This document shows positions 4,796-40,613 of a DNA stretch of 40,667 bases, piece by piece. Numbering within the stretch: the stretch's first letter is position 1; each line of letters starts with the position of its first letter. Origin of the DNA: Petrachloros mirabilis ULC683 (GTDB lineage Bacteria > Cyanobacteriota > Cyanobacteriia > Thermosynechococcales > Thermosynechococcaceae); the NCBI RefSeq assembly GCF_009939295.1, contig NZ_WVIC01000038.1, positions 1 to 40,667 on the forward strand. The letters run 5' to 3'. Position numbers and translations under genes: made by a program. The notes under the pieces were generated by a model. The model was given only the letters and a program-made list of their open reading frames with translations. It searched no databases and was not told the origin of the DNA.

Positions 4796-6778
4796 ATGAA
4801 TATTTCACTGACCCATCTCATTTTGGCCTGGAAGCTGGTCAAACAAGGCAGCCCTGCGGCTGGCGTTGATGGCATGACGACGGCATTATTCGCAAGCGAT
4901 CTTCAACCCCAGCTCCAACGCCTGGAGCGCCAGTTGCAGCGTGAGACCTATCTATCTTTGCTCGCTAAGGGCTTTTTATTACGGAAAAAACAGGGGGGAC
5001 ATCGTTTAATTGGCATCCCGGCGGTTCGCGATCGCATCGTACAGCGGCTGATCTTGCAAGCATGTTATCCCGCCTGGGAAGAACGCTTGAGCGAGTGTGC
5101 CCACGCCTACCGCCCCGGCTACTCTATTCATTCCGCGATTGAACGTCTGATGCTGTACTACCGCCACGAGGCGGTATGGACGATCAAGGTCGATATCCAT
5201 GAATTTTTCGATCACCTGAACTGGTCGCTCCTGATCAGTCAATTAGAAGCCATTGAGCTGCATCCCTGGTTGATACAGTTGATTGAGCAGCAGTTGAAAT
5301 CCGGGGTGGTTCTCAAAGGGCGATTTCAGCCCACCAACCAGGGGGTACTTCAGGGGGCTATATTATCTGGCGCTTTGGCGAATCTCTACCTCTACAACTT
5401 TGACCAGCAATGCTTAGAAGCTGGCATTCCCTTGGTGCGGTACGGCGATGACTGCGTTGCTACCTTCCCTTCCTGGGTTCAAGCAAATCGAGCCTTAGAG
5501 CTGATGCAGTCATGGTTGGCAGAGCTATATCTGGACGTACATCCAGAGAAAACTCAGATTGTATCTCCACAGGAGAGTTTCACGTTTTTGGGGCATCATT
5601 TCCAGCAGGGAAAAGTCTCTGTCCCCGTTCGCAAGCCGAGACAGAAAAAGCAACAATCAGGCAAATCCACAGGTAGGCATGAGTTCACCTATCCTAAGGT
5701 TTGCAATATTGTTCACACTCAGTCTAAAAAACAAAAAACTAAAGTTAGTCCTGAAATTTGGAAGCAGGAAATGACAACACTATATCTTACAGAACAAGGC
5801 TCGTATCTACGTGTTAAGCATCAACAATTTCGAGTTTATTATCAAAAAGAGTTGCGTTGTAGTGTTCCGATCAATCGAGTTAGCCATATTGTTATATTTG
5901 GCTGTTGTCAGTTGTCCCATGGCACAATCAGTTTAGCCCTAAGTCGGCACGTTCCTATTCTCTATCTATCCCATAATGGCAAATACTTTGGACGACTAGA
6001 GACCGCAGGACAGGCGCAAGTCAAATATTTAATTCAGCAGGTACACAAGTCCCAAGATCAAGATTTTGTTCTCAGTCAGGCCCGCAGTATGGTTGCCGCT
6101 AAGCTCCATAATGCCAGAATGTTACTAAAGCGCCTGAGCCGACGACGAAAGACGGAATTGGCTAAAGAGGTGATGGATGAACTCAAAATTATCAATCAAG
6201 AAAAAATCATCTCTGCCAATTCTATCGAAGTCCTTCTGGGCCACGAGGGCCATGCTTCTCAGCGATATTTCCGGGCATTTTCTTCTTTGCTGAAAGATGA
6301 CTTTCAGTTTGACAGCCGCAATCGTCGGCCCCCAAAAGACCCAGTCAACAGCCTACTGAGCTTAGGGTATACGCTGCTATCCCAGAATATTCATTCGATG
6401 GTTGAAGTGGCGGGTCTGCATACCCACTTCGGTAATCTCCACAAGCCCCGCTCCAACCATCCGGCTCTAGTCAGCGATCTAGTTGAGGAATTCCGAGCCC
6501 TGGTTGTGGACTCTTTGGTGGCGTATTTGGTGAACTCTGGCATTGTTAAACCCGAGGACTTTACCCCACCCGATGAACGTGGAGGTGTTTACTTACATCC
6601 GGCAACGCTCAAAGTCTTTCTCCATCACTGGTCAAAGAAATTAGAGACCCAGGTCACGCATCCCCATACGGGCTACAAGGTGAGCTATCGCCGCTGCATG
6701 GAGTTGCAGGTCTGGGAGTATATTGCGTGCCTGCAAGGCGATCAGCCGGTCTATCGTGCTATGAGGTGGGATGCCTGA
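4796..6778 (+). CDS. cas1: reverse transcriptase-Cas1 fusion protein
   Basis: 660 aa with two domains. Residues about 1-275 form a group II intron-like reverse transcriptase: motif A is KVDIHEFFDHLNW, motif B contains NQGVLQGAILSGALANLYLY, and the catalytic box is YGDD (residues 216-219). After a basic linker (about 276-325), a full Cas1 integrase runs to the C-terminus, with putative metal ligands E484 (HEGHASQRYF), H549 (FGNLH) and D561 (DLVEEFR), all present. RT-Cas1 proteins associated with type III systems can acquire spacers from RNA. There is no Cas6 domain at the N-terminus, unlike some fusions. The stop codon overlaps the Cas2 start (TGATG). Both active sites look intact. Confidence 0.95.
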   Translation: MNISLTHLILAWKLVKQGSPAAGVDGMTTALFASDLQPQLQRLERQLQRETYLSLLAKGFLLRKKQGGHRLIGIPAVRDRIVQRLILQACYPAWEERLSECAHAYRPGYSIHSAIERLMLYYRHEAVWTIKVDIHEFFDHLNWSLLISQLEAIELHPWLIQLIEQQLKSGVVLKGRFQPTNQGVLQGAILSGALANLYLYNFDQQCLEAGIPLVRYGDDCVATFPSWVQANRALELMQSWLAELYLDVHPEKTQIVSPQESFTFLGHHFQQGKVSVPVRKPRQKKQQSGKSTGRHEFTYPKVCNIVHTQSKKQKTKVSPEIWKQEMTTLYLTEQGSYLRVKHQQFRVYYQKELRCSVPINRVSHIVIFGCCQLSHGTISLALSRHVPILYLSHNGKYFGRLETAGQAQVKYLIQQVHKSQDQDFVLSQARSMVAAKLHNARMLLKRLSRRRKTELAKEVMDELKIINQEKIISANSIEVLLGHEGHASQRYFRAFSSLLKDDFQFDSRNRRPPKDPVNSLLSLGYTLLSQNIHSMVEVAGLHTHFGNLHKPRSNHPALVSDLVEEFRALVVDSLVAYLVNSGIVKPEDFTPPDERGGVYLHPATLKVFLHHWSKKLETQVTHPHTGYKVSYRRCMELQVWEYIACLQGDQPVYRAMRWDA

Positions 6779-7056
6779 TGTTTTACCTGGTTTGCTACGA
6801 CGTTGTAGAAGATCGCCGCCGCAATCAGGTGGCCACGCTCTTTGAAGGGTATGGAATGCGGGTGCAAAAGTCTGTGTTCGAGTGTGTACTCACACCTGAG
6901 CAGTATCAGATGATCTTGAAAAGGTTGCCCCAGTACCTGGATCTAGCCGTGGATCAGGTGCGCTTCTATCCGATGTCGCCTCGGCATCGGAAGAAGGTGG
7001 TGGTGGTGGGTGTGCAGCCCACCTGGCAGGTTGATGATCACTCGTTCATTGTATGA
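6778..7056 (+). CDS. cas2: CRISPR-associated protein Cas2
   Basis: 92 aa, starting at the ATG that overlaps the RT-Cas1 stop by one base. An in-frame ATG at 6727 would give a longer form but lies inside RT-Cas1. The ferredoxin-like fold starts with MFYLVCYDVVEDRRRNQVA, including the conserved Asp8 at the end of strand 1. The middle reads GMRVQKSVFECVLTPEQ, as is usual for Cas2. It would bridge Cas1 dimers in the spacer integration complex. The coding sequence ends about 240 bp before the first CRISPR repeat, on the leader side, as expected for an adaptation module feeding this array. Confidence 0.95.
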   Translation: MFYLVCYDVVEDRRRNQVATLFEGYGMRVQKSVFECVLTPEQYQMILKRLPQYLDLAVDQVRFYPMSPRHRKKVVVVGVQPTWQVDDHSFIV

Positions 7057-7294: not shown

Positions 7295-7971
7295 CTTTTC
7301 CTTACCACTACCCCGTAAGGGGACGGAAACAAGTAAAAACTCCTCTGGCTTAAAGCACTTTGCCAAACTTTTCCTTACCACTACCCCGTAAGGGGACGGA
7401 AACACGGGTGGGACGGGGCAAAAGGATTTTTTTCATAAGCTTTTCCTTACCACTACCCCGTAAGGGGACGGAAACACATCGGTCCCAGATGGGACCCCCT
7501 CGATTTTTTTACTTTTCCTTACCACTACCCCGTAAGGGGACGGAAACGAGAGGAATTTTACGAGCTTCTCCCCAAGCTCGGCTTTTCCTTACCACTACCC
7601 CGTAAGGGGACGGAAACCCGTCTTGCGACGGTAGAAGGTTACTCGGACAGGGGCTTTTCCTTACCACTACCCCGTAAGGGGACGGAAACAGGTTCTCCCA
7701 ACTGTTTGGGTCCCCAGGGTTCCGCTTTTCCTTACCACTACCCCGTAAGGGGACGGAAACCCTTATTCAGCTGAGCAAGTTTCTCAGCTTGCTCAGCTTT
7801 TCCTTACCACTACCCCGTAAGGGGACGGAAACGATAACCGCCACGGTCAGGGCGGCCAGGGGAGCGACTTTTCCTTACCACTACCCCGTAAGGGGACGGA
7901 AACCGGTAGTGGTCATTCGTGTGATGGAAAACCTTCTTTTCCTTATCACTAATCCATAAGGGAACTGAAAC
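7295..7971 (+). CRISPR. CRISPR array, 10 repeats of 36 nt and 9 spacers
   Basis: Repeats start at 7295, 7368, 7440, 7512, 7582, 7654, 7725, 7797, 7868 and 7936. The first nine appear identical: they open CTTTTCCTTACCACTA, carry a CCCC-GTAA-GGGG stem-loop with a GNRA-type loop, and end ACGGAAAC. The tenth has six mismatches and ends ACTGAAAC. Spacers are 32-37 nt. The GAAAC 3' end predicts rightward transcription with ACGGAAAC as the 8-nt crRNA 5' handle. RT-Cas1/Cas2 sit on the leader side. An 11th, truncated repeat (CTTTTCCTTA) lies at 8008-8017. Several spacers contain perfect inverted repeats (see findings). Confidence 0.98.
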
Positions 7972-8007
7972 TTGGATCCGTTGCCCACAAAGGGCTTTGG
8001 GAACTCA

Positions 8008-8017
8008 CTTTTCCTTA
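8008..8017 (+). repeat. truncated CRISPR repeat at array end
   Basis: CTTTTCCTTA matches the first ten bases of the array repeat, positioned 36 nt after the tenth repeat, exactly where an eleventh would begin. It then breaks directly into sequence homologous to the 153-aa gene at 10218-10679, marking a recombination junction. Confidence 0.75.
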
Positions 8018-8128
8018 TTGTTTAGTCTCGCCCCCTGAAGGCAATTCGCATTGATATGGCGATTGATTGCCACTGGGTGATTGTGGCTCCCGGTTTACGT
8101 TCCTATCCAGATGCAGTCTGAGTTGGCT
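8017..8128 (+). pseudogene. fragment duplicated from the 153-aa gene at 10218-10679
   Basis: About 110 bp align with 10497-10607 of the intact gene at high identity. Both carry, for example, the same CACTGGGTGATTGTGGC block. Its translation gives SRPLKAIRIDMAIDCHWVIV against SRSLKAVRLDMAIDRHWVIV in the intact copy, but stop codons interrupt it at both ends. It has no start. It is fused directly to a truncated CRISPR repeat, so it marks rearrangement of the array's distal end. Confidence 0.85.
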
Positions 8129-8205
8129 TCGCTGCGTCTGTAATATCATTCGCGATGAAGAAATTTGTGAGAATATAAGTGCTATAAAATTTACTTTTCT
8201 CCTGG

Positions 8206-10217: not shown

Positions 10218-10679
10218 ATGTCATACCAAGTCATTTGGTTTAGGGATGCAGCTAAACGATTGAAGCTGCTAGAGCCGAACCTGGCGTTTGAGTCTTTAAT
10301 CGATATTGTGAATACTCACCTTCCCCGCCTAGCCGGAACCCTAGTGAGTCAGGGAAGTGACCTAAATAACCCCGAAGCGTGGTGGCAAGGGTTGGGAATG
10401 GATGCCATGCTGCGCCTGGAGCGCAAGTGTGGCAAGGTAGAGCGGGTTGCAGTTTGCCTTGCCTCCAACTGGCCTCAAGGCCAGGAAGCGCTCAAAATTG
10501 TTCAGTCTCGCTCCCTAAAGGCAGTTCGCCTTGATATGGCAATTGATCGCCACTGGGTGATTGTGGCACCCAGTTCACGTCCCTACCCAGATTACATCTG
10601 GGTTGACTTTTTCTACGCAGTCATCGATCGCCAGCCCGGTTATCGTGGCTGCTCATTGCTGGAGGTGCCATCTGGCTAG
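10218..10679 (+). CDS. unknown CRISPR-locus protein (153 aa)
   Basis: I do not recognise this family. The protein is mixed alpha/beta with conserved-looking blocks WFRDAAKRLKLLEPNLAFES, AWWQGLGMDAMLRLERK, and RLDMAIDRHWVIVAP near residue 110. It has no signal peptide or membrane segment. It starts at ATG 10218 behind AAGAGGTG. A diverged 110-bp piece of the same gene is fused to the end of the CRISPR array at 8017-8128, so the family has been tied to this array through rearrangement. It lies between the array and the CARF gene, and a strong hairpin follows at 10692. A CRISPR-linked role is inferred from position only. Confidence 0.7.
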   Translation: MSYQVIWFRDAAKRLKLLEPNLAFESLIDIVNTHLPRLAGTLVSQGSDLNNPEAWWQGLGMDAMLRLERKCGKVERVAVCLASNWPQGQEALKIVQSRSLKAVRLDMAIDRHWVIVAPSSRPYPDYIWVDFFYAVIDRQPGYRGCSLLEVPSG

Positions 10680-10755: not shown

Positions 10756-11874
10756 GTGTTTAAGTCCGTGATCTGTTCAGTAGGAACCAGTGCAGCAAAG
10801 AACTTAAGTGGCATTCCTCCATCTGCGCTAGAAAATTGGGTTTTAGAGCAAGGTGGTATTGATACAGCTTCTGAAGTTATGTTTAATAGCTTTAAAGATA
10901 AAGAACCCAGTGACGAAAATTTAGCGAGGTATTTGTCTGCTGAAATACATTCGCTGGTCAGAATTGGAATTGATAAAGGTAGCAGAATACTGTTGTTGGC
11001 TTCCGAGACTATTGATGGTCAAGCTTGTGCCTTAGCTCTAAAAAAATATCTCGAATCCTATTGGAAAGGCATTGACGTACAAACAAAAAAAATTGAAGGT
11101 CTACAGGTTCAAAATGCCGATAGATTTCGCCAACAGGGAGTCATAAATTTTATTAAAGAAGCAATTGCCGAGATAGATTGCCATGGCAATAATGTAATTC
11201 TTAACCCAACTGGAGGTTATAAGGCACTAGTTCCCTACATGGTCTTATTGGGAATGATCAAGTCGGTGAAATGCAATTATATTTTTGAGCGCTCTACAAG
11301 CTTATTAGAACTACCACCCCTACCAATTGAATTTGATCGAAATCAATTTGAAGTGCATAAAGAATTATTTGAACAAATTGAACGTGACTCCTCAATCTCT
11401 AAACAAGATTGGGGAGATAAGGTTTCTTATGAGGATCGATCCTGGTTCGAGCCTTTAGTTGAAGAAATGGGTGATAATCAAATTACACTTTCTGCGGCAG
11501 GTTTTTTGTTTCTTGAGGCCATGCAAAAACCGGCAAAAAAATTGGTTTCTTACCTCTCAAAACAAGCAATTAAAGATTGCTTTGAAAATATTGCGACACT
11601 GGATAATCGAGATCCATTCCGTTATCTAAATCAAGTATCTAAATCTGGACTAAATGAAGATAATGTACATATACATACAGATGGTTTGTATTGGTTAAAA
11701 CCTGGAAGGACAACCGATCGATATCTAGTCTCAACTGAAGACTGGAGACTGCTCGTTTGGAGAGTAATTCGTGAAGATCAAGTAGGAAAAGACTATTCAA
11801 CTAAGATTAAGGTTGATCCAGCTAAAGAAAGAAATGAATATGCTCCATTTATGCGAATGGATTTTGTGACTTGA
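10756..11874 (+). CDS. CARF-domain effector with RelE-like C-terminal domain (Cami1-like)
   Basis: 372 aa from GTG 10756, with AAGAGGA upstream. Residues 1-185 form a CARF domain: strand 1 ends VICSVGTSAAKNL, and the ligand-pocket signature is VILNPTGGYKALVPYM (147-162), so it should bind cyclic oligoadenylate made by Cas10. Residues about 195-265 look like a winged-helix linker. The C-terminal 100 residues contain HTDGLYWLKPG and RTTDRYLVSTEDWRLLVWRV, which resembles a RelE-type mRNA interferase and not HEPN, since no RxxxxH motif is seen. This would make it a CARF-RelE (Cami1-type) effector that cuts mRNA at ribosomes. CARF is confident; RelE is inferred from pattern. Confidence 0.8.
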   Translation: MFKSVICSVGTSAAKNLSGIPPSALENWVLEQGGIDTASEVMFNSFKDKEPSDENLARYLSAEIHSLVRIGIDKGSRILLLASETIDGQACALALKKYLESYWKGIDVQTKKIEGLQVQNADRFRQQGVINFIKEAIAEIDCHGNNVILNPTGGYKALVPYMVLLGMIKSVKCNYIFERSTSLLELPPLPIEFDRNQFEVHKELFEQIERDSSISKQDWGDKVSYEDRSWFEPLVEEMGDNQITLSAAGFLFLEAMQKPAKKLVSYLSKQAIKDCFENIATLDNRDPFRYLNQVSKSGLNEDNVHIHTDGLYWLKPGRTTDRYLVSTEDWRLLVWRVIREDQVGKDYSTKIKVDPAKERNEYAPFMRMDFVT

Positions 11875-12766: not shown

Positions 12767-12944
12767 ATTTTTCTGTAGAAGTGGAACGTTTCAAATAGGC
12801 TTTTGAAGTTAATCAAGGTCTAAATTAAGAATTATTAAAAGTCTGTTTTCGTCATTTATGATGGGAAGAACTCAAAATGGTTTATAGAATCTCAAAATAA
12901 GGTGAGTTTCAATAGTTGAGTCACGACGAGTGACTGATGGTGCG

Positions 12945-13087
12945 TTAGAGGCGGTTTGAAAAGTTTCTAACGCCTTGCACCCGCCCCCTAAATCCCCCAT
13001 TCTGGGGGACTTAAGAGTGATCAAAGCCCCCCAGAATGGGGGGTTGGGGGACGAGTGTAGAGCAAGACTTTAGAGACAGCCTCTTAA
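12945..13087 (+). mobile_element. MITE-like palindromic element (family A)
   Basis: The 143-bp element starts TTAGAGGCGGTTTGAAAAG and ends with the imperfect complement ending GCCTCTTAA. The centre holds CCCCCATTCTGGGGG and CCCCCCAGAATGGGGGG palindromes. Its first 90 bp nearly match 40516-40600. It lies 60 bp upstream of cas10 and probably contributes part of that gene's upstream region. No ORF. Confidence 0.75.
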
Positions 13088-13147: not shown

Positions 13148-14869
13148 ATGTCTGAGCTTTACCTAGTTCTGTTGGAAACATCAGGCAATCAGAACTATAT
13201 TTTCTCAACGAACAAGCTGAAAGAAAATATCGGTGCGTCTGAGCTGACCTATCGAGCGGGCACCCAGTGGATCATTGACGCTGTAAGGGGTGAAAAGGTG
13301 CAGCAGTCTCTCCGAGAAGTTCTATTGAACCCTGAACTTAATCCTCCGATTGAACAGGAGGGAAACACAGTTGAAATCATTCTGGCGACTTCTGGCAAAG
13401 CCTTATTGTTAACCCGCACAGCAGAGCAGGCGCAAGCGATTATCCGACAAGTGACGCAGCAAGCCCTAGAAGAGGCACCAGGGCTAGAAATCTGTGGTGT
13501 ATTTGTATCCCTTAACTGGGAGACCGACTGTTTGGGCGAAATGAATCGCCAGGTTCATCAACGCTATGAACAGGTGCGCTCAGAAAAGCCCAGTGCCGAT
13601 CTGCGATTTCTGCGCTTACCGATCTTTGCTGACTGTGCCAGTAGTGAGTTCCCCGCGAACCATGTAGACACAGTGCATGAGGAAACGGTTTTGCTCTCTG
13701 TCCTAGCCCATGCAAAACGTCAAGCGAGCGCAGCAGGAGTGCAACGACTGGCTCAAGTTGCTCGTCGAGCCGACATGCGACTGGCTCAGAATGTGGATCA
13801 GCTTGAGAAGCGGTTTGAAGAAGAGTTGGACTGGCTGGCAGTGGTTCATGCCGATGGCAATGGCTTGGGTGAAATCTTTCTGAAGTTTCACGAGCATATT
13901 GCGGCGACAACAGCTCAGGACAACCGCCGCTATATTAATACCCTCCGGCTCTTTTCCCTGGCGCTGGATGTCTGTACTGAAACTGCTTTTAATATGGCTC
14001 TGAAGACGTTTCAGCAGAAGAATGAAAACACGGCAGATGCCCCCCAAGACTTGCCGGTGGTGCCCCTGATCTTGGGGGGCGATGATCTGACGGTCATCTG
14101 TGATGGCCAGAGCGCGTTGCCCTTTGTGCGGGCATTTCTCCTGGCCTTTGAAGCTGAAACCCAAAAAGAGCAGAATCTGGGCCGAGTCAAGACCAATGTG
14201 ATCCCAGAAATTGCCAAGAAAGCGCTGAAGGTGGGTCGTCTCTCTGCCTGTGCAGGGGTAGCCATCGTCAAGCCCCACTTTCCGTTTTCAGTGGCCTATG
14301 CCCTTGCGGCTGATTTGATCCAATCGGCAAAGGGCGTCAAACTGCGGGTCACTCAATCTGGCTCCTCAGGGCAGCAGCCTTACCCCTGCTCTGCTCTAGA
14401 CTTTCACATTCTCTACGATTCCAGTGATGTTGATTTAGATCTAATCCGTGGGCATCTGCACATCAAGTTAGGGGAAGACCCGCCCGTATGGCTCTACAAC
14501 CGTCCCTATGTGGTCACAGCCTTAGGAGACTTGTCCGGTGTCGATGGGCACGATTGGGCTGAGTTTCATCACTGGCAAAAGCTCCAGGAGGGCATAGATC
14601 TCCTGCTCGAAACCGATGACGAGGGGCGTCGGTGTTTGCCCAACAGCCAGACCCATGATTTGCGGGCGGCGTTGTTTCTGGGTAAAGCCGCCGCAGATGC
14701 TCGTTATCAGTTGATTCGCCAGCGATATGAGTCCCTTGAGCGGCTAGCTGGCAGTCCAGACTCACTGTTCCAGGCAGAACCAGGCACTCATACCGATATG
14801 ACTGCCCTCATGGACATCATTGATGCGGCTGAATTTATTGGCAAGACCCCCCATGCCGAAAAAGCGTAG
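13148..14869 (+). CDS. cas10: Cas10, type III-D, lacking HD domain
   Basis: 573 aa. The protein begins directly in the first palm domain (LYLVLLETSGNQNYIFSTNK then LKENIGASEL); there is no N-terminal HD nuclease, so ssDNA cleavage is not expected. The motif VVHADGNGLGEIF marks the palm core. The catalytic palm carries ILGGDDLTVICDG with GGDD at residues 310-313, the cyclic-oligoadenylate synthase site, which looks intact. The C-terminal helical region ends near the overlapping start of the next gene. It heads a tightly packed effector operon. Retained GGDD together with the CARF protein at 10756 supports a signalling-based response. The start is ATG 13148, with only a weak Shine-Dalgarno. Confidence 0.93.
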   Translation: MSELYLVLLETSGNQNYIFSTNKLKENIGASELTYRAGTQWIIDAVRGEKVQQSLREVLLNPELNPPIEQEGNTVEIILATSGKALLLTRTAEQAQAIIRQVTQQALEEAPGLEICGVFVSLNWETDCLGEMNRQVHQRYEQVRSEKPSADLRFLRLPIFADCASSEFPANHVDTVHEETVLLSVLAHAKRQASAAGVQRLAQVARRADMRLAQNVDQLEKRFEEELDWLAVVHADGNGLGEIFLKFHEHIAATTAQDNRRYINTLRLFSLALDVCTETAFNMALKTFQQKNENTADAPQDLPVVPLILGGDDLTVICDGQSALPFVRAFLLAFEAETQKEQNLGRVKTNVIPEIAKKALKVGRLSACAGVAIVKPHFPFSVAYALAADLIQSAKGVKLRVTQSGSSGQQPYPCSALDFHILYDSSDVDLDLIRGHLHIKLGEDPPVWLYNRPYVVTALGDLSGVDGHDWAEFHHWQKLQEGIDLLLETDDEGRRCLPNSQTHDLRAALFLGKAAADARYQLIRQRYESLERLAGSPDSLFQAEPGTHTDMTALMDIIDAAEFIGKTPHAEKA

Positions 14870-17396
14870 ATCCAAAAACCAGACTTCTCAGAAGTCAAGG
14901 CAGTCTCCCGCCACCCCTATCTCTTCAACCTCCACAGATGTTTCTCTAGCCGCGATGCAACCTCAGTCAGCCTTCCCTATTCGTATTCATTTGCTTAGCG
15001 ATTGGCATATTGGCTCTGGGGCTGGGCGTCCCGGTGATGTAGATCGCTTAGTTCAACGCGATCGCGAGGGGTTCCCTTTCATCCCGGCCAAGACCCTGAC
15101 GGGGATCTGGCGCGATGCCTGTGAGCAGGTGGCCTATGGCCTTGATAATGGCACGCCAGGGAATTGGTCAGCCTGGGTGGCTTACTTGTTTGGGGATCAG
15201 CCCGCTTTGGCTCAGGCTGCTGTTAGTCAGGCTCCCCGAGAGGCCGCCCTATCTGTGCGGTTGGCGCGCCTGCCAGATGACTTGCGGGCAGCAGTGGGGT
15301 CGAAGTCGCACCTCAAAGCCGCCCTAACCTTTGTCAAGCCGGGGGTGAGCCTGGATCCTCAGACGGGCTGTGCCCGAGAGGAGTATTTACGGTTTGAGGA
15401 AATGGCACGGGCTGGGGCGACCTTGGTTGCGGACTGTGAGCTAGCGCTAGACGAACTGGAGACCGAACAACAGCAGGCGGCCTTTTGTTTGGCTGTAGCT
15501 GGCACGCCCATGATTGAGCGCCTGGGTGGAAAACGTCGTCGGGGCGCTGGGCGCTGCACCGTTGAAATTGGCTCAACACGGAGCTACGCCCGGCTGCTAA
15601 ATCGATGTATTACCTGGATTGAGCAACATTCTTCCCCTCACTCGCCTCCTTCGGCTTCTTCCTCTTCCTCGGAAGCCTCCTGGGCAGCCTGGACGCCTGC
15701 TGCCCAGGAGTCCACCTGGCGGGTTTTCCCCCTGCGAATTGAAGCCCGCTCCCCCCTGGTGATGGCTCAGCGCACCCTGGGCAACGTGGTGGAAACCCTT
15801 GACTATATTCCAGGTACCCATCTCCTCAGGCTGGTGGTGCGTTGTTTAAGTGGCTTGGGGGTGGATTTGAGTGGTGCGATCGCCCACAGTAACCTTATGG
15901 TCACCAACGCCACCCTCGAAATCCAGGGGCAACGCAGCCTCCCCGTTCCCTACGCCCTCTTTGGCGAAAAACTGACCGGGGGTCTAGCCAAAGGGCGAGG
16001 GGTTCACAACTGCTTTGTGGGTGACACCACAACCGCCCCCGGCCAGCTAAAAGGCGAGCGCAGTGGCTACCTGGTGCCCCAATCCGGGCTTCTGCCCTAC
16101 TACGCCACAGTCAAACGCGGAGTGGAAACCCACAATACCGTCGAGGATGCAACCCAGTGCCCCACTGAAGCCGTTGGCGGTGTGTATAGCTACACCGCCA
16201 TTGCCCCCGGCACCCACTTTCAAGCTGAACTGCGCCTCACCAGCGACCTAGCTGCCCAACTGTCCGCCCAAGATGCCCACTGGGTGCAGCACCTATCCGG
16301 CTCACACCGCCTAGGGCAATCCAAGAAAGACGACTACGGTGCTGTCAACCTTCAAGTCTTGAGTACAGCTCCAGACAACTCATCGAATAAGACAGTGGAT
16401 AAGACACCGAATCAAACATCGAATCAGGCATCGAATCAAGCATCGAATCAGGCATCGGATAACGCCCCAGATCCCCCCGAATCAACCCTAACCGTTTGGC
16501 TGCTTTCAGACCTCTTGCTGCGTGACGAACGCTTACGCCCCACCGCCAATACAGACGCCCTCCGCCAAGCCCTGGAAGACCAGCTTGATGTCAAGCTCAG
16601 TCCCCGCCAAGGAGATACCCCCGCCGTTATGGCTCGACAGCATCGGCTAGAGTCTTGGCAAGTGCGCTGGGGTCTGCCTCGTCCCTCCCTGGCAGGGCTA
16701 AAGGGTGGAAGTTGCTTTGTCTTTACCGTTCAAGGAACGCTCAGTGCCAGTCGCCTGGCCAGTCTTGCCCAGCAAGGACTCGGAGAGCGTCGCGCCGAAG
16801 GCTTTGGACAGGTGTGCTTTAATGCCCCCTTGCTAACGCAATCAACCGCAAAACTAACCCGGACTGATTCATCCTCACCTGATCAGTCCCCCGATCAGCC
16901 CCCTGATCTGCCGCTGCTCAACACCCAGGATGACGCCCTCAAGACCTATGCCCGAGGCATAGAACGAGCCGCATGGCGAGCCGCCATACGCCAAAAGGTT
17001 CTGGCCTTAGCCGCCACTCCTGAGAGCCGCTGTCAAATTTTGGGCATCACCGGCGATAAACCCAGCCAAACTCAACTCGGAGCCTTGCGATCGGTATTGG
17101 GTCGCGTGCAGCAGCATAGCGATCATGCAACTGTAGTCAATTGGTTAGATCACTTACAAGCAACCCCCACGCGTCAGGCGAAATGGCCTCAGGGTAGTCT
17201 CACCAAAATTCGCAACTTAATGACTAACGCAGAGCTGATCTGGCAACACCTCGAAGGAGACACCCCCACCCTCGCCCAGATCACCATGACCCCAGATGGC
17301 ACATCAATCCTGAAGCAAGAACTGTGGGCAGAAGCGGTAAAAACCCTTGTGGATGCTTGTATTCGAGCCCATAAGCGCAGTCAGGAGGAGGCTTAA
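14853..17396 (+). CDS. Cas7-Cas5-Cas11 fusion, type III-Dv effector
   Basis: About 847 aa from ATG 14853, overlapping the cas10 end. An upstream ATG at 14820 and a downstream one at 14955 are possible starts. Three parts are visible. First, a Cas7/Csm3-like RAMP (about 35-265): LLSDWHIGSGAGRPGDVDRL and PFIPAKTLTGIWRD. Second, a Cas5/Csx10-like part (about 290-680): LDYIPGTHLLRLV, HRLGQSKKDDYGAV and LGERRAEGFGQVCF. Third, a helical Cas11-like C-terminus (about 700-847). Ser/Pro- and Asn/Gln-rich linkers separate or interrupt the parts. This fusion order is the one known from the Synechocystis sp. PCC 6803 III-Dv complex, an intermediate towards single-protein III-E effectors. It would hold the crRNA 5' end and cut target RNA. 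Confidence 0.88.
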   Translation: MPKKRRSKNQTSQKSRQSPATPISSTSTDVSLAAMQPQSAFPIRIHLLSDWHIGSGAGRPGDVDRLVQRDREGFPFIPAKTLTGIWRDACEQVAYGLDNGTPGNWSAWVAYLFGDQPALAQAAVSQAPREAALSVRLARLPDDLRAAVGSKSHLKAALTFVKPGVSLDPQTGCAREEYLRFEEMARAGATLVADCELALDELETEQQQAAFCLAVAGTPMIERLGGKRRRGAGRCTVEIGSTRSYARLLNRCITWIEQHSSPHSPPSASSSSSEASWAAWTPAAQESTWRVFPLRIEARSPLVMAQRTLGNVVETLDYIPGTHLLRLVVRCLSGLGVDLSGAIAHSNLMVTNATLEIQGQRSLPVPYALFGEKLTGGLAKGRGVHNCFVGDTTTAPGQLKGERSGYLVPQSGLLPYYATVKRGVETHNTVEDATQCPTEAVGGVYSYTAIAPGTHFQAELRLTSDLAAQLSAQDAHWVQHLSGSHRLGQSKKDDYGAVNLQVLSTAPDNSSNKTVDKTPNQTSNQASNQASNQASDNAPDPPESTLTVWLLSDLLLRDERLRPTANTDALRQALEDQLDVKLSPRQGDTPAVMARQHRLESWQVRWGLPRPSLAGLKGGSCFVFTVQGTLSASRLASLAQQGLGERRAEGFGQVCFNAPLLTQSTAKLTRTDSSSPDQSPDQPPDLPLLNTQDDALKTYARGIERAAWRAAIRQKVLALAATPESRCQILGITGDKPSQTQLGALRSVLGRVQQHSDHATVVNWLDHLQATPTRQAKWPQGSLTKIRNLMTNAELIWQHLEGDTPTLAQITMTPDGTSILKQELWAEAVKTLVDACIRAHKRSQEEA
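16405..16464 (+). repeat. 12-bp tandem repeat inside the Cas7-Cas5-Cas11 gene
   Basis: Five imperfect units of CATCGAATCAGG encode SNQA repeats (SNQASNQASNQAS). They lie in a low-complexity loop after the HRLGQSKKDDYGAV motif of the Cas5-like part. Unit length is a multiple of three, so expansion or contraction keeps the frame. Confidence 0.85.
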
Positions 17397-17399
17397 GCG

Positions 17400-18974
17400 A
17401 TGGCACGTAAACTGGCGTCTCGCCTCAAAATTGAAGGCACACTGCTAGCGCAGACCCCAATCCATGTGGGTGGGTTAGGGGATGATCCCACCGTTGACTT
17501 AGCCTTAGCCGTCAATGGTCAAGGGCAGTATTATATCCCCGGCACCAGTTTGGCTGGGGCACTGCGGGGCTGGCTGGGGATTGATGAAAACAGCGGCTCA
17601 ACGGAGGCCAAAGTCCTGCAAACCCTCTGGGGATTTCAACCGCACAAACAGCGTCGCCAAGGCCATGCCAGCCATGTTCTGGTTGAAGACGCCCCCCTCC
17701 CTGACGCCCAGGTAGAAATCCGCGATGGCGTGGGAATAGATCGAGAAACGGGCACAGCCGCTGAAAACATTAAGTTTGATCGAGCGATTTTAGCCAAAGG
17801 CACCCGGATTCCCCTGCGGATGATCTTGGAGTGCCCTGTGCAACCCGCCAACCCTCAACCCCAGGGAGCCGACCTCTGGGAAAGGGCTGAAGTCCTGTTT
17901 ATACAGACCCTCCAGGCACTCCAAACCGCTGAAATTCGCCTAGGGGCAGCCAAAACCCGAGGGCTGGGGCAAGTGCAGTTGCAAAACCTGACGCTGCTCA
18001 AACAGCCTTTGAATACCTTTGCTGGCATGGTGAAAACCCTCCGAAACCAGGGCGAAACCCTGAATTTAGCGGACTGGTCCCTTGGCGACGCCTTGCTCTG
18101 CCCTCGCCCTCAGTTACAGATCACCATTCATTGGCAGCCTGTCGGCCCCGTTATGGTCAAAGCGGAGGCCGATGGCATTGCCGTTGATAGCCTTCCCTTG
18201 GTCAGTGCTGTCGATCAGCACCAGGTTTCCTTGGTGATTCCAGGCAGCTCTCTAAAAGGCACCCTGCGCGCCCAGGCCGAACGGATCCTTCGTACCTTAT
18301 TGGGGGTTCCCATCCCTACAAATGAGAACCCCAGGCAACGCTTTTTGCAGCAAACCCAAGACCTGCCCTTGATTCAGGCTCTATTTGGGGGAGCTGCGCG
18401 GCTCAAAGACGGCCAACAGCAAGGGCGCATAGGTGCCTTCAGCGCCAATGATTGTTATGCCCAGCCTCAGATCGAGCCAGCCCAATGGCGCAGTATAGAA
18501 TCTGCTCGGGATGATCACCAACTCAGACAAGCCCTCAACCAAGCTAATCTCAACAGCGTGCAACAGGCTTACCATGTGGCCATTGACCGTTGGACTGGAG
18601 GGGCAGCAGAGGGGTTTCTGTACAGCACCCTGGAACCCATGGGGGTGAGCTGGCACCCCCTGGAATTAACCCTCGATTTGTCTCGACTTTCGGAGTCAAA
18701 AGAGCAAAGGGCTGCGATCGCACTTCTCTTGCTGCTCTTGCGAGATTTAGCCCATGGCCGCATCCCCCTGGGCTATGGCACCAATCGCGGCATGGGAGCC
18801 ATTGCAGTTCAAAACATCAATATCAAAGGTCGCGGCCTGCCTGAGACTTTATCTGCCCTGGAAGACATCTACCTACCCCAAGGAAACATCACCGCAATCA
18901 ATGCCGATTGTTTGAACTCTTTGACCAAGGAGTGGAAAGACTACTATCTGAAGCAGCAAGGAGAAGCCCCATGA
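17400..18974 (+). CDS. Cas7-2x: tandem Csm3-like RAMP protein
   Basis: 524 aa made of two Cas7/Csm3-like domains. The first (about 10-210) has the loop PIHVGGLGDDPTVDLAL, with candidate catalytic aspartates, and IPGTSLAGALRGWLG. The second (about 235-500) has EADGIAVDSLPLVS and VIPGSSLKGTLRAQAERIL, then LFGGAARLKDGQQQGRIGAF. The GSSLKG(T)LR crRNA-binding motif is strong in domain 2 and slightly altered in domain 1. In the 6803 III-Dv complex the Cas7-2x protein forms part of the backbone with RNase sites. It begins three bases after the previous stop and its own stop overlaps the next ATG (ATGA). Confidence 0.9.
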   Translation: MARKLASRLKIEGTLLAQTPIHVGGLGDDPTVDLALAVNGQGQYYIPGTSLAGALRGWLGIDENSGSTEAKVLQTLWGFQPHKQRRQGHASHVLVEDAPLPDAQVEIRDGVGIDRETGTAAENIKFDRAILAKGTRIPLRMILECPVQPANPQPQGADLWERAEVLFIQTLQALQTAEIRLGAAKTRGLGQVQLQNLTLLKQPLNTFAGMVKTLRNQGETLNLADWSLGDALLCPRPQLQITIHWQPVGPVMVKAEADGIAVDSLPLVSAVDQHQVSLVIPGSSLKGTLRAQAERILRTLLGVPIPTNENPRQRFLQQTQDLPLIQALFGGAARLKDGQQQGRIGAFSANDCYAQPQIEPAQWRSIESARDDHQLRQALNQANLNSVQQAYHVAIDRWTGGAAEGFLYSTLEPMGVSWHPLELTLDLSRLSESKEQRAAIALLLLLLRDLAHGRIPLGYGTNRGMGAIAVQNINIKGRGLPETLSALEDIYLPQGNITAINADCLNSLTKEWKDYYLKQQGEAP

Positions 18975-19531
18975 CCCAGCTTTACGGACGCCGGAGTCTC
19001 AGCATTTCCCTCACAGAGGCGCTGCGCCAGACCGCCACCCAACTCAAAGGCGGCACCGCCCTCCTCTACACCCCAAACCAGTGCCAACTGGCACAGGTTA
19101 CAGAAGCAGGCCATCTAAACGATGCAGTCGCAGGCGACATAGACCTATCCGCAGTATTTGAAGCGCGGATCTTTAACCCCGACTATGAACTGCGCTGGCT
19201 CCATCAGCACAGGGGGCAGGGGGTGGCCGTACTCCTGGCTGAGCAACCCCTGCCTGAGACCTGTTTTGACCAAGACCTTGAGACCCTAGAAGCCTTTGAG
19301 ACTATCTCGCAGCAGTATTTACTGTGGGGCAAAGGAACTGAAACCACCCCCAGCCCAGGGTGGGGACAGCTAGCCGATGCTCGCATTGGAACATTGGCTG
19401 TCCCCGTTGCTGGGGTTACTCAAGAGCGGCGGGTCGTGCTGAAAACCCGCGAATACCTCAAAACCGTAGACCCCTATGGCAACGTTGCCGTGGTCGAAGA
19501 ACGCTTACTCAAACTGGGAGTTCGAGCATGA
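18971..19531 (+). CDS. csx19: Csx19 (TIGR03984-like), type III-D subunit
   Basis: 186 aa from ATG 18971, which overlaps the upstream stop as ATGA; the frame is open further upstream, but this is the coupled start. Recognisable segments are MTQLYGRRSLSISLTEAL, ALLYTPNQCQLAQ and a central FEARIFNPDYELRWLHQH, followed by GVAVLLAEQP. The tail LLWGKGT...LADARIGTLAVPV is in keeping with the Csx19/TIGR03984 group, which is restricted to type III-D loci. It is a structural component of the III-Dv effector without known catalysis. Identification leans partly on operon position. Confidence 0.8.
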   Translation: MTQLYGRRSLSISLTEALRQTATQLKGGTALLYTPNQCQLAQVTEAGHLNDAVAGDIDLSAVFEARIFNPDYELRWLHQHRGQGVAVLLAEQPLPETCFDQDLETLEAFETISQQYLLWGKGTETTPSPGWGQLADARIGTLAVPVAGVTQERRVVLKTREYLKTVDPYGNVAVVEERLLKLGVRA

Positions 19532-21984
19532 TTACCGGCAGATTAGAGGTATCTGGGTCTCCAAATAATCGGAAGCTCAGGGTTACCTACACCCATAACG
19601 GCAGCTACAATCAGATCACCCTTCCCAATGACGATCAGTTATCCCTAGCCTTGGCGGCCAAGAAGCAAGAAGGTGGACTTGAAGCACTGAAAAACCTTCC
19701 GGTAGAGCTAGAAGAAGACGGTGGACAGCCAGTCCGCATTCGTGAGCAAGGCCAAGACTGGGATCGAGTGGCAGCCGCCCCTATTGCTCCCGTAGCCGCA
19801 GCACCCGCAGACCCTTTTGCCACAGTAGAAGTCTATCAAGCACCAAACCTGCCCCCCGGAGACTTTCATAACCCCTACAACTTCATCCCTGCACCCCCGC
19901 GCCAAACCGAGCATCCTGACCTGGGCGACCATAATCCGGTTAAACAGGGGATGGGACATGGCTACTACCACCCAGATCGCTGGTCTGGGCGGATTGCTGT
20001 CAAACTGACCACCGAAACTCCGCTTCTGATTCCCGATGCTGCCAATGCCACCGGTGACGATCACAAAAGCTATCCCCTGCGCCTGGGCGTTGATGGCAAG
20101 CCCTATCTGCCCCCGACCTCCATTAAAGGCATGTTGCGCACCGCCTACGAAGCGGTGACCAACTCCCGCTTTGCCATTTTTGCCAAGCACGAAGAGCGAT
20201 TAGCCTACCGCATGCCCGCCAACCTGGGATTAAAAATGGTTCCAGCCCGAATTGAGAAAGATGCTACGGGCAATCTAATCATTCAGCTCTACCCAGGTAC
20301 ATCAACCATTGGTGCAGATGGCGCTCCTGGTGGTAACCAGATGTATGCTGCTTGGCTGCCCAGCTACCAGCCTAATGGCAGTGGCATTAGAAACCTCACT
20401 GGTTACCCAGCCAACAATCGTCTACCAAATCACAGGGATAGGGTAACTGTTTTGCTGGAGCAGTACGGGAAATACCACAACCCTCAGCACACGGGTCATC
20501 CTATTTTCACCTACTGGAAAGTCCGAGCAATGGCACCCCCAGGGACTACGCTGGACACCCCTCCACCGGGTGCAGCGAACGGTAGACATGCCCCTCTGAG
20601 GACTCCCATGAGGCAAGTTGATGGGTATGTCTGCATTACGAACAAAAATATTGACAATAAGCATGACGAGCGCGTCTTTTTTAGTACGGCTCCGGTGCCC
20701 CCACGTCCGCTAACTCCCGCCCTTCAGCAGCAGTGGCAAGCGCTGATTAAAAACTACCAGGAAATTCATGAGACTGAAATCAGCAGAGGTATGACAGGGC
20801 CACCCGCGCTAGCCAACTCGCGGTGGTCAAGACAGGTGGTCGGAGGGAGTTCTGAGTGGGTGCTATCACCTGGCACTCTTTGCTATGCCCAGGTCAAAAA
20901 AGTAGCTTCTGGCTATGATGTTTTGGCATTGTACCCGGTGATGATTTCTCGGGAGTTGTACGCCCAACCGCCCCAAGCCCTACTGCATCCCAGTCAGGCT
21001 CCCGCTGAGCGTTTAGAACAGCTCTCACCCGCAGATCGGGTGTTTGGCTGGGTCAATCAACAAGGGAAATCGGCCTATAAAGGCAATCTCCGTATTCACA
21101 GCGTCACCTGTCATTCAGACACAGCCGTTGCATCCTTTAATGGGTTGGGGGTGCCCTTGGCCATTTTGGGAGCGCCCAAGCCGGAGCAGACCCGGTTCTA
21201 CACCGCTCACGATGCCACTGGTAATCCCCTCCAGGTGGGCGTCAATAAAGAAAGTGGCTACGACTCTGCAGCTCGTGGTCTGCGCGGTCGTAAAGTCTAT
21301 CCCCATCACAATGGGCTACCGGCCAACCACTGGGATAATCCGCAGCAAGATCGTACCCACCAAGACAATCAAGGTCACTACCAGGAATATCGTCGCCCCC
21401 GACAAAATGGACAAGAACAGCGAGACGATCAAAATCGTTCGATTCAAGCCTGGGTGAAGCCGCAGACTGAGTTTTCACTTCAGCTAGAAGTGACCAATCT
21501 GTCGAAGTGTGAACTTGGAGCCTTGCTGTGGCTGTTGACCTTACCCCCAGGGCACTATCACCGGTTGGGTGGAGCCAAGCCCTTTGGCTTTGGCAGTGTT
21601 TACCTTCAGGTAGACTGGCAAAACACCGATCTCAAATTGGGTCAGGGTTGGAAAACGTTTTATCAGTCACTGACCGCTCCCTCCAATGCAGACCCGTTTG
21701 ATCCCTCGTCTATGATCACCGCCTTTAAGGATGCAGTTCAAAAAGTGCAGGGTGGCAATTTTGAGCAGGTGCCTTTTATTGCCGCATTTTGTCGCGCCGC
21801 TCAGGGCTTTGCAGATCAATTGCCTGTGCATTACCCGCGTCTTCAAGCTCAACTCCAGCCAGATACAAAAATTTTCGACTGGTTTGTTGCCAATGAGAGA
21901 ACAGGCAATCAGGGAAATGGTCAAAAAGTGTCCTTGCCAGCCTTGAGGCAAGACCAAGGGTTGCCCTTAAATCCTCTCCAGTAG
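19528..21984 (+). CDS. Cas7-insertion RAMP protein (TIGR03986-like), type III-Dv
   Basis: 818 aa from ATG 19528, coupled to the csx19 stop (ATGA). An N-terminal small domain (about 1-85) and an Ala/Pro linker precede the Cas7 fold: NPYNFIPAPPRQ, GHGYYHPDRWSGRIAVKL, TPLLIPDAANATGDDHKSYP and YLPPTSIKGMLRTAYEAVTN. A large insertion (about 235-480) interrupts the RAMP fold before the C-terminal GGAKPFGFGSVYLQV glycine-rich loop. The matching 6803 subunit is called Cas7-insertion. It would cap or extend the backbone near the crRNA 3' part. It closes the effector operon; 229 bp later a MITE-like element begins, followed by the ribosomal genes. Confidence 0.88.
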   Translation: MITGRLEVSGSPNNRKLRVTYTHNGSYNQITLPNDDQLSLALAAKKQEGGLEALKNLPVELEEDGGQPVRIREQGQDWDRVAAAPIAPVAAAPADPFATVEVYQAPNLPPGDFHNPYNFIPAPPRQTEHPDLGDHNPVKQGMGHGYYHPDRWSGRIAVKLTTETPLLIPDAANATGDDHKSYPLRLGVDGKPYLPPTSIKGMLRTAYEAVTNSRFAIFAKHEERLAYRMPANLGLKMVPARIEKDATGNLIIQLYPGTSTIGADGAPGGNQMYAAWLPSYQPNGSGIRNLTGYPANNRLPNHRDRVTVLLEQYGKYHNPQHTGHPIFTYWKVRAMAPPGTTLDTPPPGAANGRHAPLRTPMRQVDGYVCITNKNIDNKHDERVFFSTAPVPPRPLTPALQQQWQALIKNYQEIHETEISRGMTGPPALANSRWSRQVVGGSSEWVLSPGTLCYAQVKKVASGYDVLALYPVMISRELYAQPPQALLHPSQAPAERLEQLSPADRVFGWVNQQGKSAYKGNLRIHSVTCHSDTAVASFNGLGVPLAILGAPKPEQTRFYTAHDATGNPLQVGVNKESGYDSAARGLRGRKVYPHHNGLPANHWDNPQQDRTHQDNQGHYQEYRRPRQNGQEQRDDQNRSIQAWVKPQTEFSLQLEVTNLSKCELGALLWLLTLPPGHYHRLGGAKPFGFGSVYLQVDWQNTDLKLGQGWKTFYQSLTAPSNADPFDPSSMITAFKDAVQKVQGGNFEQVPFIAAFCRAAQGFADQLPVHYPRLQAQLQPDTKIFDWFVANERTGNQGNGQKVSLPALRQDQGLPLNPLQ

Positions 21985-40415: not shown

Positions 40416-40515
40416 GTTTATTCATCTTAGGCTTGACACAAATCAAACCTGGCGCAAAATTGACACTGCAAAGGACTGGAGCGTCTCAGTTAGCCCTATA
40501 ACCTTATCAGTGGCG

Positions 40516-40613
40516 TAAGAGGCGGTTTGAAAAGTTTCTAATGCCTTGCACCCGCCCCCTAAATCCCCCATTCTGGGGGACTTAAGAGTGATCAGCCCCC
40601 CATTCTGGGGGGC
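40516..40613 (+). mobile_element. MITE-like element (family A), interrupted copy
   Basis: It begins TAAGAGGCGGTTTGAAAAG and nearly matches 12946-13030, including CCCCCATTCTGGGGG. It is cut at about 40613 by the terminal repeat of a family B element. Its right end is not in the window. Confidence 0.75.

Follow-up and report, generated by a model that had tools for sequence, protein, structure and literature searches.

Hairpin-rich spacers beside an RT-Cas1 fusion in Petrachloros mirabilis and their possible origin in structured RNA

The window, by which we mean the whole stretch of 40,667 nucleotides analysed here from Petrachloros mirabilis ULC683, carries a CRISPR array and the following genes.

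4796..6778, + strand: RT-Cas1 fusion, 660 aa, one ORF (RVT_1 at 63-269, 9e-34; Cas_Cas1 at 329-613, 2e-89)
6763..7056, + strand: Cas2, adjoining the RT-Cas1 fusion
7295..7971, + strand: CRISPR array; CTTTTCCTTACCACTACCCCGTAAGGGGACGGAAAC is repeated exactly nine times (36 nt each), and the final copy (7936-7971) is degenerate
10756..11874, + strand: CARF-RelE-like accessory protein
13148..14869, + strand: Cas10
14820..17396, + strand: RAMP protein with Cas7-like and Cas5(III-D)/Csx10-like parts
17400..18974, + strand: Cas7 (III-D), a Csx7-type RAMP
18908..19531, + strand: Csx19 (III-D; TIGR03984, 131 bits against a cut-off of 35)
19360..21984, + strand: Cas7-type RAMP of the TIGR03986 family (III-D; 331 bits, above the cut-off)

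Judged by its gene content, this is an ordinary RT-Cas1 type III-D CRISPR-Cas system, in which the RT is fused to Cas1 and Cas2, the array and a Cas10/RAMP effector lie in the same locus, and Csx19 and the TIGR03986 family are recognised by their profiles and the III-D forms of Cas7 and Cas5 by PADLOC; the Csx10 profile match of the RAMP protein is below the cut-off, and the fusion has no detected Cas6 part. The leader side of the array is probably the upstream one, because the repeat ends in GGAAAC at its 3' end, the distal repeat is the degenerate one, and rt-cas1-cas2 lies on that side. Elsewhere in the locus, positions 2621-2755 hold a stretch resembling residues 475-519 of the Cas1 part of the fusion (69% identity, with a stop), which by its similarity is a putative relic of an earlier RT-Cas1 copy, and a 113-nt direct repeat (8017-8129 and 10497-10609, 84%) flanks the stretch between the end of the array and the CARF-RelE gene.

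The exact repeats span 7295-7903 and the nine spacers 7331-7935. The six spacers with a perfect stem of at least 5 bp and a loop of 3-8 nt are:

7476..7511, + strand: spacer 3, 6-bp stem (7481-7486/7491-7496), reverse complement reading KKIEGVPSGTD
7548..7581, + strand: spacer 4, 7-bp stem CGAGCTT/AAGCTCG, protospacer overlapping spacer 1 of another array of this genome, on contig C34
7618..7653, + strand: spacer 5, 5-bp stem CCGTC/GACGG, MFE no better than shuffles
7690..7724, + strand: spacer 6, 5-bp stem CCCAA/TTGGG, MFE no better than shuffles
7761..7796, + strand: spacer 7, 9-bp stem CTGAGCAAG/CTTGCTCAG
7833..7867, + strand: spacer 8, 5-bp stem CCGCC/GGCGG, MFE no better than shuffles

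All six stems had been reported by the initial annotation and are present where it placed them. Dinucleotide shuffles of the same spacers lead one to expect 1.43 such stems (P=0.00025) and mononucleotide shuffles 0.84, so that the earlier chance estimate of one spacer in nine comes close to the mononucleotide value and is somewhat low for dinucleotides. The stem of spacer 7, given before as 9 bp, or 10 with a repeat base, has its 9 bp within the spacer and extends to 11 bp when two bases of the next repeat are included (7769-7798), while the terminator-like appearance ascribed to spacer 3 is lost on inspection, the seven T beginning 7 nt past the stem. Beyond the degenerate repeat a tenth spacer follows (7972-8007), in which no stem reaches 5 bp. 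The folding-energy effect, which for the nine spacers summed reaches P=0.012 against shuffles, is carried mostly by spacers 7, 3 and 4 (z of -4.4, -2.2 and -1.5), spacers 5, 6 and 8 having z of about 0 or above.

Hairpin richness of this kind is a property of the class. About 3,500 spacers were compared overall, those of RT-Cas1 loci coming from 42 loci on contigs of GTDB genomes and from loci in a cyanobacterial genome collection; arrays were detected by script and spacers were compared with their own dinucleotide shuffles. Stems of at least 5, 6 and 7 bp occur in 22.0, 9.3 and 3.75% of the RT-associated spacers (n=1068); in the comparison with shuffles the RT-Cas1 arrays gave 22.1, 9.2 and 3.6%, against 13.6, 3.5 and 0.9% expected, and RT-Cas1 arrays of bacteria other than cyanobacteria (n=136) show the excess as well. 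For the same three stem lengths, random windows from the genomic flanks of the RT loci give 14.9, 4.5 and 1.3%, five DNA cyanophages 12.9, 3.6 and 0.9%, and type I-D/I-E cyanobacterial arrays (n=1269) 14.4, 4.2 and 1.5%, the RT-associated spacers exceeding the type I spacers at Fisher values of 2e-6, 8e-7 and 8e-4. Five ssRNA phage genomes cut to 36-mers reach 24.9, 9.5 and 4.0%, a yardstick made up of only five Leviviricetes (MS2, Qbeta, PP7, AP205 and phiCb5). The earlier proposal that RT-Cas1 arrays are rich in hairpins therefore stands, whether they are set against shuffles, the flanking host DNA, DNA cyanophages or type I arrays, those of the same genomes included; the dependence on the RT that it also implied is only weakly supported, as discussed below.

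A cleaner contrast is obtained from interior stems, which lie at least 3 nt inside the spacer and thus exclude errors at the repeat boundary. Interior stems of at least 6 bp are found in 6.8% of the type III spacers of RT-bearing genomes (2.5% expected), in 2.8% of type I spacers (1.9% expected; 3.1% for type I within the RT genomes), in 2.3% of DNA phage fragments and in 7.9% of ssRNA phage fragments (2.2% expected). The type III spacers of RT genomes do not differ from ssRNA phages in interior stems (p=0.53, 0.35 and 0.9), whereas for stems of at least 6 bp they differ from DNA phages (4e-11) and from the type I spacers of the same genomes (p=0.0086). The effect stays in an array-clustered model that adjusts for GC and length, in which the log-OR relative to type I is 0.81 [0.48, 1.25] for type III of RT genomes. 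That these spacers are richer in hairpins than type I spacers and DNA sequences is a firm result.

The hairpins are not arranged as the capture of ends would have them. Their centres are uniform along the spacers (KS p=0.48 and 0.42), and spacers in which a GC-rich stem is directly followed by a T-run number 2, against 1.9 expected, among 1062 RT spacers, by which terminator capture was rejected. The initial annotation's idea that structured or terminated RNA 3' ends are taken up finds no support in these two results or in the coding signature, which hairpin spacers retain: their reverse-complement frames are as open as those of other spacers. In RT spacers with a stem of at least 6 bp there are also more T-runs upstream of the stem than the 1.5 expected (9 observed) and more A-runs downstream of it than the 0.75 expected (4 observed), the opposite of terminators. 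Reverse-complement frames are more open than forward frames in type III spacers of both the RT (p=0.006) and the RT-free group (p=0.0005), with no such asymmetry in type I spacers (p=0.79); therefore crRNAs tend to be antisense to coding RNA, a bias that, since it also occurs in RT-free type III, can reflect selection for the targeting of transcripts. The target strand folds no better than the crRNA strand, and strand asymmetry is likewise lacking in the ssRNA phage controls. As a source, rRNA was rejected, because the 47 rRNA-like spacers found with E. coli rrnB as target compare with 40 among shuffled sequences, which is at chance; a 16S gene was not found in the contigs of this genome that were searched.

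The explanation that we prefer, with confidence about evenly balanced by doubt, is that the RT-Cas1 type III-D array records RNA and that its hairpins are inherited from hairpin-dense source RNAs similar to those of ssRNA phages. The arrays would sample, mostly in antisense, coding regions of RNAs as dense in local hairpins as ssRNA phage genomes; the fragments would be taken regardless of where a hairpin lies, and the hairpins would come along from the source. That this source was RNA, that it resembled phages and that the RT accounts for the effect are inferences. Since fragments cut at random from ssRNA phage genomes reach an equal hairpin density, RT-Cas1 need not prefer hairpins, and these most likely derive from structured RNA, perhaps like that of ssRNA phages, and not from a search for hairpins by the enzyme, although the data do not fully separate the two.

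The donors might instead be ordinary transcripts, among which RT-Cas1/Cas2 or host RNases favour fragments with hairpins, for example because structured pieces survive or because RNase III cutting leaves a 3' OH. Such an acquisition bias, which is the initial annotation's view without the terminators and which we regard as rather unlikely, would fit an excess that is seen in type III arrays of the RT lineage and absent from type I arrays of the same genomes, as well as the hairpin richness of sites sampled repeatedly by related or overlapping spacers, and RNase III cleavage of structured RNA has been proposed as an origin of RNA protospacers (Mohr et al. 2024, PMC11014452). However, cutting or end capture should fix the place of the hairpin, which is uniform, the terminator signature is not seen, and the bias would have to happen to reproduce the density of ssRNA phages.

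How far the excess depends on the RT is less clear-cut. The comparison with arrays lacking an RT, proposed in the initial annotation as a check, went against it at face value, as RT-less type III loci equal RT loci in hairpin rate (OR 0.93, p=0.57). As a control, RT-less Cas1 loci are confounded, since most lie in RT-bearing genomes and some have the repeats of RT loci, and their place was taken by two other sets, type I-D/E arrays and the type III arrays of genomes without CRISPR-RT. These RT-free type III spacers (n=792) have stems of at least 5, 6 and 7 bp at 19.1, 6.4 and 2.4%, between RT-associated and type I arrays and near the latter, and keep a small excess (6.4% against 3.4% expected for at least 6 bp); their clustered log-OR relative to type I is 0.14 [-0.30, 0.58]. 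The difference between RT-genome and RT-free type III is 0.66 [0.25, 1.12] in log-OR, the interior stems of at least 6 bp stand at 6.8% against 3.7% (2.7% expected in the RT-free group; p=0.0017), and the RT contrast within type III overall ranges over p=0.002-0.02. Grouping by RT-bearing genome was, however, chosen after the first RT-less result had been seen, and when four ambiguous loci (129 spacers) are moved to the RT-free side the contrast falls to p=0.05; for these reasons the dependence on the RT within type III is only suggestive. One of the four, G030, has an RT remnant 47% identical to the RT of the window, in G239 an RT adjoins Cas1, and G094 and G280 have only Cas1 fragments, which are close to RT-Cas1.

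It is against this background that one may ask whether the pattern is mostly chance together with a mild property of type III arrays generally, the RT being irrelevant, which we consider unlikely. The six of nine stems do exceed the class rate of about 22% (P=0.005), and the window array is the most hairpin-rich of 68 arrays; the chance of such a maximum is about 0.29, so that this array is best seen as lying at the high end of an excess that is real and extends over the class. That figure, the equality of RT and RT-less loci and the small excess kept by RT-free type III all speak for this reading. Against it, all three RT-type arrays of the Petrachloros genome fall in the top four of 68, with stems in 20 of their 38 spacers and in 9 of 61 spacers of its type I arrays (p=9e-5), and RT genomes and RT-free type III differ in their interior stems, although the strictest grouping brings this to the p=0.05 given above.

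Further information on the source comes from spacers that are related to one another, 19 pairs of which were found in the first array set, 18 on the same strand and one on opposite strands. The same-to-opposite ratio is 13:1 for RT loci, 4:0 for RT-less loci of RT genomes, 8:2 for RT-free type III and 10:4 for type I, the last including re-found near-identical spacers. Related spacers often have hairpins, and the changes between them are mostly synonymous. Spacer 3 has a relative in the C34 array, both with the reverse complement (K/V)KIEGVPSGTD; their five internal differences are all synonymous and in one codon phase. At one pair of differing positions base pairing is restored, but this compensatory change was rejected as proof of RNA structure because the codon phase shared by all five substitutions, which on either strand are synonymous, explains it equally well. 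Between spacer 4 and C34 spacer 1 there is an overlap of 16-17 identical bases (joint reverse complement LQVNLADPELGEKLVKFL), and genome G067, which belongs to another family, has a relative of C34 spacer 1 (reverse complement LHVNLADPELP). Therefore, at least two hairpin sites have been sampled twice from related coding sources. The peptide KIEGVPSGTD, shared by spacer 3 and its C34 relative, resembles motif B of RNA-dependent RNA polymerases (GxPSG), and these two spacers may thus target such a polymerase; a motif scan of the spacers found no excess, one match per about 1000 independent spacers being near chance, and a motif B-like match also occurs in one type I spacer.

That the hairpins were made at acquisition, by an RT folding back on the cDNA it is making and so leaving an inverted repeat in the spacer, is highly improbable. 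In its favour, RNA protospacers receive 3' DNA tails from the Marinomonas RT-Cas1 (PMC11014452), CRISPR RTs can prime DNA synthesis (PMC10415136), and spacer 7 is a near-perfect fold-back. Against it, the hairpin of spacer 3 is found again, with synonymous changes, in an independent spacer, the overlapping C34 spacer 1 contains the second stem arm of spacer 4 and runs on into further source sequence, hairpin spacers keep their open reverse-complement frames, and the stems have no fixed position.

Several features of the related arrays deserve mention in their own right. The repeat of the C34 array (L044:1-900) is identical to that of the array beside a 91% identical RT-Cas1 in G011 and similar to the C57 repeat, and an insert of about 150 nt, with inverted repeats made of G-runs and C-runs, splits one of its spacer intervals; the C77 array is interrupted by a similar insert (L048:1137-1290). 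The C34 insert, as well as the sequence just downstream of the C34 array, is resembled by a dispersed element of which the window has two 89-nt copies, 94% identical (12942-13030 and 40513-40601; GTTTGAAAAGTTTCTAACGCC...CCCCCATTCTGGGGG). In the L143 array of G067, spacers 682 and 745 overlap by 23 identical bases, and when joined they contain the hairpins GGCACC/GGTGCC and GGAACC/GGTTCC about 20 nt apart. The second RT-Cas1 array, on C57, has a spacer (L091:11591-11626, C57:31590-31625) that is the exact reverse complement (36/36) of one of its own repeat-spacer junctions, formed by 13 nt of repeat and 23 nt of a distal spacer (L091:12649-12684), an apparent self-acquisition from the array or its transcript, to judge from the match; the repeat that precedes this spacer has a run of N immediately before it, so an assembly error is possible.

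Matching the spacers to phages and plasmids, as the initial annotation had suggested, gave nothing convincing, and the same holds for IMG/VR, by DNA or by back-translated peptide; spacers 3 and 4 and their relatives were not found in any of these three. The window, C57, L141 and L143 arrays have no ssRNA phage match in 50,697 phage records. As no protospacer was found, the RNA source is reached only indirectly, through the antisense coding signature and the hairpin density resembling that of ssRNA phages.

The source of RT-associated spacers has been called enigmatic by Silas et al. (2017, PMC5513706), who do not discuss spacer structure, and we found no paper on spacer structure in RT-Cas1 arrays in the open-access literature. 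The hairpin signature is a lead on this open question, being a fingerprint that works without a database match and that makes the question testable on any sequenced array. Its ssRNA-like density points to metatranscriptomes over DNA viromes as the place to search, and if RT-Cas1 does prefer structured RNA, this would matter for RNA-recording tools built on these enzymes. We put forward only tentatively, as doubtful though possible, the wider view that what type III arrays in bacteria with RT-Cas1, the present one among them, have stored is for the most part sequence of undiscovered ssRNA viruses infecting cyanobacteria and other bacteria, and that hairpin density alone is enough to recognise it.

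Compared with known systems, the locus is like the III-B systems of Marinomonas mediterranea and Arthrospira platensis (Silas et al. 2017, PMC5513706) in its RT-Cas1 fusion, its Cas2 and its adjoining type III effector and array, and unlike them in having a III-D-like effector and a fusion without a detected Cas6 part; as in the RT-Cas1 systems of the same study, its spacers are without matches in DNA databases. Type III CRISPR systems, some of them with RT, target prokaryotic RNA viruses and viroid-like RNAs (PMC10847044), and spacer matches have been reported for Obelisks (PMC13096302); those cases rest on matches between spacer and target, of which there are none here, and the likeness of the present arrays to them would lie in the recording of RNA elements. 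The spacers of these arrays share no sequence match with any ssRNA phage record searched, and their likeness to Leviviricetes genomes, which is a statistical one only, lies in the density and stem-length distribution of local hairpins.
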